The notes below the pieces were generated by a model. It was not told the origin of the DNA and ran no database searches. It saw only the letters and a program-made list of their open reading frames with translations. The position numbers were made by a program, and so were the translations under genes. A stretch of 64,000 nucleotides of DNA, taken from positions 61,767,766 to 61,831,765 of the forward strand of contig NC_072801.1 of assembly GCF_028583425.1 (NCBI RefSeq), written 5' to 3'. Positions 19,873 through 32,979 of the stretch are shown here, piece after piece; within the stretch, counting starts at the first letter, position 1, and each line of letters opens with the position of its first letter. Source of the stretch: Eublepharis macularius. Its lineage: Eukaryota; Chordata; Lepidosauria; Squamata; Eublepharidae.

Positions 19873-20039
19873 CAGATAAAGTCCGTGCAGTGGCTGCAAA
19901 AGGTGGGCTGCTTGAAGAAGCGGGCTACGAACTTGTGGCTCTTCACCTCGTGGATGACCTTCTGGCGTAGCGCCCCCTTTCGGCAGAAGAGCGGCTTGGT
20001 CAAGCATTCGGTCTCGGTGGGGGAGCTCAGGAGTGCCAT
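19873..20039 (-). CDS. PRKCG: PRKCG first coding exon (protein kinase C gamma, N-terminus)
   Basis: Read on the minus strand from an ATG in a strong Kozak context (ACCATGG), this exon encodes 55 residues plus two bases of a Trp codon and ends at a GTGAGA donor (19872 leftwards). Residues 16-29 read [14 protein letters not shown], the classical PKC pseudosubstrate with the PLFC lead-in and KSHKF continuation typical of gamma rather than alpha or beta. From His36 the start of the C1A zinc finger follows, with H-x12-C-x2-C spacing (CSHC), ending at DFI(W). Human PRKCG exon 1 ends at the same point. The kinase is Ca2+/diacylglycerol-dependent and neuronal. The first 15 residues differ from the human protein, as this isoform-specific tip does between species. 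The C1 remainder, C2 and kinase exons should lie to the left; I found none in 1-19,872. The neighbour MYADM, on the same strand upstream, agrees with human gene order. Confidence 0.94.

Positions 20040-32979: not shown

Follow-up and report, generated by a model that had tools for sequence, protein, structure and literature searches.

The window analysed here, a 64-kb stretch of DNA (C12:61767766-61831765), belongs to an assembly of 2.237 Gb in 72 contigs that was also searched as a whole genome. On its plus strand lies an APOH-like gene of eight exons, whose spliced model has an open frame of 346 codons plus a stop codon and seven introns, all of them GT-AG (7/7), with internal phases of 1,1,1,2,1,1,1. 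The ATG of this gene (21651, +) and that of PRKCG (20039, -) are separated by 1,612 bp in a head-to-head arrangement. A first-pass annotation had already described an eight-exon, 346-codon plus-strand gene that begins about 1.6 kb away from the start codon of the oppositely oriented PRKCG, and our analysis bore out this description, including its coordinates and counts.

PRKCG is represented in the window by its exon 1 (19873..20039, -), which encodes the N-terminus and the first half of C1A, and by an exon 2 of 32 nt (4682..4713, -). In a comparison with PDB sequences, the peptide encoded by these two joined exons differed from PKC-gamma (2e73) at 2 of 32 aligned positions and read GIGKQGLQC where the PKC-beta counterpart reads GFGKQGFQC, the top-scoring chains being longer PKC-beta ones. 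A single frame of 300 codons with two MARVEL stretches (Pfam, E 2.2e-31) forms a MYADM-like gene at 57738..58640 (-), which we take to be MYADM. Six other frames of the window gave no Pfam match over a cut-off. Open frames of about 90 codons with no such match lie at 44796-45068 (+) and 45434-45703 (-). A long AT-rich tandem repeat, with ILYYIILYY frames on the minus strand, occupies positions 16569-16897.

The exons of the APOH-like gene, all on the plus strand, measure 79, 144, 186, 112, 77, 180, 198 and 65 nt. The putative exon 1 (21651..21729, phase 0 to 1) carries the ATG, a hydrophobic signal peptide and a GT donor, and the predicted exon 2 (27289..27432), which is symmetrical in phase (1-1), encodes a WAP-like module with eight cysteines. 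Exon 3 (29159..29344) encodes a first CCP module (module a; Sushi, 1e-7) at the position of APOH module I, to which it is assigned by order only. A second CCP module (module b, corresponding to APOH module II) is split at phase 2 between exon 4 (29528..29639) and exon 5 (29818..29894), and a third (module c, corresponding to APOH module IV) is encoded by exon 6 (31842..32021), with a conserved GNWS glycosylation site. Exon 7 (32178..32375) encodes the Sushi_2 core of domain V, while exon 8 (32915..32979) encodes its C-terminal loop with the terminal cysteine and includes the stop codon. Downstream of this stop codon, a poly(A)-signal-like word ATTAAA is found at 33266..33271 (+), with a second one at 33405. 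The encoded protein starts with a hydrophobic stretch, contains 26 cysteines beyond residue 20 and carries sequons at positions 117, 211, 251 and 302. Such a model, predicted from the genomic sequence, could in principle describe a decaying pseudogene without a product, but 346 open codons, seven of seven canonical introns, six of six domain V cysteines and an ATTAAA word after the stop codon, all kept despite an identity of about 30%, make this idea very improbable.

A Pfam search identified Sushi_2, the fifth domain of beta-2-glycoprotein, at the C-terminus of the APOH-like protein (E 2.5e-32, 88/88 positions), together with three Sushi stretches. The Sushi_2 score of this protein (111 bits) compares with 124 bits for human APOH, and the alignment showed that all six cysteines of domain V are kept, including the C-terminal one. 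A match with APOH had been proposed beforehand for modules IV and V. Along its exons, the gene encodes a signal peptide, the 8-cysteine module, the CCP modules a, b (split) and c, and domain V, in this order, so that three CCP modules precede domain V, compared to the four canonical ones of APOH. The structure and order of the exons allow counterparts of APOH modules I and II to be proposed as well. Module b scored 85 against module IV and 79 against module II of the ordinary APOH of the same genome, and module a scored 56, 45 and 40 against its modules IV, II and I, respectively; these scores alone do not fix either assignment, such that module b is equated with APOH II from the exon structure and module a with APOH I from the order. 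Module III was considered as the source of the split CCP module and rejected, since it is module II that is split in the ordinary APOH. No clear remnant of module III was detected in the intron at 29895-31841, where the score of the ordinary APOH module III was matched by 33 of 100 shuffles and that of the human module III, a weak signal, was reached by 4 of 100. Extra CCP or domain V exons over the inclusion threshold were not found in the window either, using models that included the window's own modules and that therefore address extra copies only.

The module encoded by exon 2 gave no Pfam match and no PDB sequence match at E<=10, and a genome search returned no convincing second copy, with two further matches at E 4.0 and 5.2 and no module of this kind in the translations examined. 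When it was compared, with cysteines fixed, to three WAP modules of SLPI/elafin, z values of 3.4-4.4 were obtained, although the exon 2 module has a C5-x-C6 spacing. It resembles the WAP (four-disulfide core) modules of SLPI and elafin by eight cysteines in a similar order and by its CG-x-x-C ending, and it differs from them in not being recognized by the Pfam WAP profile, in having C5-x-C6 instead of an adjacent CC pair and in lacking a KxGxCP start. The WAP profile (PF00095) found 57 matches in the genome at E<=0.001 and none in the window. From its sequence, then, the exon 2 module is best described as WAP-like and probably not as a member of the WAP family. As a separate observation, 54 of these 57 WAP-domain matches fall into two clusters on contig C5 (143.30-143.42 Mb and 173.60-174.18 Mb), corresponding to a large expansion of WAP genes.

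A search of the whole genome, in which all 18 of the 18 first-look candidates were scored, located Sushi_2 in at least two places, once in the window gene and once at C4:14940301. At both, the gene lies divergently next to one that encodes a conventional PKC. The second place belongs to an APOH gene at C4:14926101-14943275 (+) that has the ordinary five-module form: I, II (split), III, IV and V. Its spliced model comprises eight exons of 64, 177, 97, 77, 189, 180, 198 and 65 nt (348 codons), of which exon 1, picked by a scan of hydrophobic starts, is predicted and the least certain. An HNF1-like site is located at C4:14926022, 79 bp upstream of the ATG of this ordinary APOH, and is the sole place with <=2 mismatches in the 70 kb scanned. 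According to PMC4814826, the human APOH gene also has eight exons, with Ser88 encoded by exon 3 and Trp316 by exon 8.

The comparison of the two genes of this genome showed that their 3' exons of 77, 180, 198 and 65 nt are identical in length, that module II is split at phase 2 over two exons in both, and that domain V is encoded by two exons in both. What distinguishes the APOH-like gene from its ordinary counterpart is a missing 189-nt exon, that of module III, and an extra 144-nt exon, that of the WAP-like module. Since both exons are of phase 1-1, either could be dropped or inserted without a change of frame. At the protein level, the window protein shares with APOH (human PDB 6v06/1c1z and the C4 copy) a signal peptide and CCP modules followed by an aberrant domain V with six cysteines and a C-terminal cysteine, as well as a GNWS sequon in module IV, and its gene likewise stands divergently beside a gene for a conventional PKC. 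It differs from APOH by the absence of module III, by the extra 8-cysteine module after the signal peptide, by a longer C-terminal loop and by the loss of the lysine-rich loop (here CRSQNKTC), its domain V being 29-33% identical to those of APOH. A protein of this kind could also stem from a chimera, in which exon shuffling added the domain V exons of APOH to an unrelated CCP gene: by sequence, APOH I and II are not the clear best matches of modules a and b, and exon shuffling in one of the two genes is suggested by the WAP-like exon, which is either extra or exchanged. We nevertheless give this chimera little credence, because exons 5 to 8 hold the exact APOH lengths together with the phase of the split module, because only the module III exon is missing and because the gene occupies the corresponding position beside a PRKC gene.

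The neighbourhoods of the two genes were then compared, with gene names at the C4 and C12 loci assigned from best matches. On C4, PRKCA exons were found on the minus strand at 14528882-14589434, with 75-93% identity to a stretch of human PRKCA. Exon 1, as read directly from the C4 sequence, starts near 14860172 and exon 2 lies near 14852546, both also on the minus strand. Since the ordinary APOH starts at 14926101 on the plus strand, it forms with PRKCA a head-to-head pair whose members are 66 kb apart. The separate APOH beside PRKCA for which the first-pass annotation had called is therefore present in the same species. Beside PRKCA, CACNG5-like exons were detected at 14405513-14428631 (-), with four matches of 50-73% to human CACNG7, and a further CACNG match (31%) lies at 14121402 (-). 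On C12, PRKCG exons extend from 61747192 to 61787804 (-) and are followed by the head-to-head APOH-like gene. CACNG7 is located at 61628428-61647123 (+), with four exon matches of 86-92% and a fifth of 66% to human CACNG7, and a further CACNG match (33%) lies at 61693440 (+). CACNG7 and PRKCG thus stand on opposite strands on C12, compared to a human arrangement in which both presumably point in the same direction, making a local inversion likely.

PRKCA-CACNG5, PRKCG-CACNG7 and PRKCB-CACNG3 form a paralogon, and in this genome, each of the PRKCA, PRKCG and candidate PRKCB loci has one or more CACNG matches less than 0.2 Mb away. The PRKCB candidate locus (C12:1499416-1574105) has a single CACNG match, at 1450278 (38%). 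The three loci differ in that a Sushi_2 gene was found by PRKCA and by PRKCG, while the genome search found none beside the PRKCB candidate. The PRKCB candidate and PRKCG are on the same 81-Mb contig (C12), about 60 Mb apart. A genome search with PRKCG exon 1 returned five places, PRKCG itself and four of 53-60%, among which neither PRKCA nor PRKCB was listed. In human, according to the same paper (PMC4814826), APOH, CEP112 and PRKCA fall within a 617-kb region of chromosome 17. The APOH, PRKC and CACNG genes found on both contigs of a single species support the earlier suggestion that an ancestral pair of APOH and PRKC(A/G) was duplicated with the paralogon. In human, APOH and PRKCA are divergent neighbours and PRKCG lies by CACNG7 and MYADM, the APOH-like gene having presumably been lost from the PRKCG-MYADM interval.

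How old the split between the two genes may be was estimated from their proteins. By BLAST, the ordinary APOH shares 47% identity with human APOH over 309 positions, while the APOH-like protein is 29% identical to the ordinary APOH over 239 positions and 32% to human APOH over 170, values for which a slightly truncated ordinary APOH protein was used (exon 8 boundary at 14943253). In a three-point tree of these three proteins only, with some saturation at about 30% identity, the APOH-like protein attached at 0.48 of the path from the ordinary to the human APOH (95% interval 0.30-0.66; 248 gap-free columns from modules I, II, IV and V), and 0.7% of 5,000 bootstraps placed the attachment below 0.25 (P=0.007). 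A repeat run gave a 95% interval of 0.29-0.67, with P(<0.25)=0.011 and P(<0.31)=0.036. When the less securely assigned modules I and II were left out, the attachment was at 0.50 (0.26-0.75) with modules IV and V, and it was at 0.65 (0.26-1.16) with domain V only, each with 2.3% of values below 0.25. The protein does not join the branch of the ordinary APOH close to its tip, as a recent duplicate within squamates would.

Shared residues gave a similar picture. The ordinary and human APOH differ at 125 sites, where the APOH-like protein matches the former at 16 and the latter at 15, and the 15 human-only matches exceed an assumed chance level (P about 0.01 at an assumed rate of 6% per site). Where the two APOH proteins agree, it matches them at 58 of 123 sites, or at 37 of 102 once Cys and Trp are set aside. 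In domain V, it is identical to the ordinary APOH at 24 of 83 positions and to human APOH at 27 of 82, the latter two being identical to each other at 43 of 82.

These data bear on the idea of a recent APOH duplicate, of gecko or squamate age, that landed by PRKCG and then evolved fast. That Sushi_2 was found in at least two genome places, with no others located, would fit such an event, and the APOH-like protein is indeed fast-evolving, with a branch length of 1.22 compared to about 0.4 for the branches of the ordinary and human APOH. However fast it evolved, a recent duplicate is expected to show an excess of residues shared with the ordinary APOH only, and none was seen; domain V is even slightly closer to that of human, the attachment point lies far from where a recent split would put it, and a chance head-to-head landing on a paralog of PRKCA is itself improbable. 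We consequently rejected a recent duplication in the species' own lineage and regard a gecko- or squamate-level origin in general as scarcely credible. Judged by these distances, a split within roughly the more recent half of the lineage since its separation from human appears excluded, and our best estimate places the split at or before the separation of human and reptiles, an age that the 15 human-only matches favour, with an attachment in the early reptile branch lying inside the error range (P(<0.44) of 0.14-0.33, according to which modules were included).

An older small-scale duplication or translocation, which would have brought APOH into the PRKCG locus after the two rounds of whole-genome duplication (2R), either before the amniotes or in early reptiles, is less easily set aside, because the distance test excludes a recent split only (P(<0.44) reaching 0.33). 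Yet the same divergent PKC neighbour and CACNG genes are present on both contigs, and no insertion is needed at all if the whole block was duplicated, so that we consider this older event unlikely, though a real possibility. It is this shared block, rather than the tree, that leads us to the 2R reading: the APOH-like gene is probably an ohnolog of APOH from whole-genome duplication, with a remodelled head. In the ancestral divergent pair, the neighbour of APOH would have been a conventional protein kinase C gene, itself followed by CACNG genes, and duplication of this chromosome block would then have given rise to APOH-PRKCA-CACNG5 on one side and to the APOH-like gene with PRKCG and CACNG7 on the other. 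The PRKCG-side copy may subsequently have lost module III and gained the symmetrical WAP-like exon, or the reverse may have happened in the other copy.

The interval between the two start codons offers hints on where such an ohnolog may be expressed. An HNF1-like site (GTTAACGAATAAC, 21321..21333, +) with a 10/12 match is found 318 bp upstream of the APOH-like ATG, which is suggestive only, and it is followed by TATATA (21363..21368, +), the interval having no other TATA(A/T)A word on its plus strand. Both APOH copies of this genome therefore have an HNF1-like site close to their start. The PRKCG side of the interval holds a CpG-rich stretch, at about 19.8-20.9 kb. Scanning the interval for bacterial promoters gave no match, a result that is uninformative on a vertebrate promoter. 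Since the site is one of six HNF1-like places in the 64-kb window, against a mean of 2.2 in shuffles, liver expression of the APOH-like gene is suggested, and no more than that.

In APOH, the lysine-rich loop and the LAFW loop of domain V serve phospholipid binding. The first of these loops reads CKNKEKKC in human APOH and CKNKDQHC in the ordinary APOH of this genome, while it reads CRSQNKTC in the APOH-like protein, with the sequon at position 302 inside it. The domain V of the APOH-like protein (11 K+R and 9 D+E) is less basic than that of human APOH (16 and 11) and similar to that of the ordinary APOH (10 and 7). Since the lysine-rich loop has been replaced by CRSQNKTC with an N-glycosylation sequon, binding to anionic phospholipids is predicted to be weaker or redirected. 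The product would be a secreted, disulfide-rich protein made of a signal peptide, an 8-cysteine WAP-like module, CCP modules I, II and IV and an APOH-type domain V. Most likely, it would act as a liver-made plasma protein that docks on its ligands through domain V, as APOH does, while its new N-terminal module would supply an effector function or a ligand contact.

APOH is a protein of clotting and immunity and the main autoantigen of the antiphospholipid syndrome, and to our knowledge, its gene is commonly regarded as single-copy and as having no close relatives. In the literature searched, by title and abstract opening, we found no description of a copy on the PRKCG side. What is new here is that this APOH paralog has a different set of modules, with no module III and with an 8-cysteine WAP-like module ahead of module I. 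More speculatively, at least some reptiles might possess a second, 2R-derived beta-2-glycoprotein I, that is, a plasma protein without module III whose WAP-like head would be protease-inhibitor-like or host-defence-like, whose loop would be shut by glycosylation and whose scaffold would be redirected to a new ligand, a scenario that we hold to be possible but doubtful. The gene adds one gene pair to the PRKC/CACNG paralogon and may be an ohnolog to seek across vertebrates, one that human has presumably lost. With its domain V scaffold retained but both the phospholipid loop and the antibody-target end altered, this old paralog provides a natural comparison for the role of each module of APOH.
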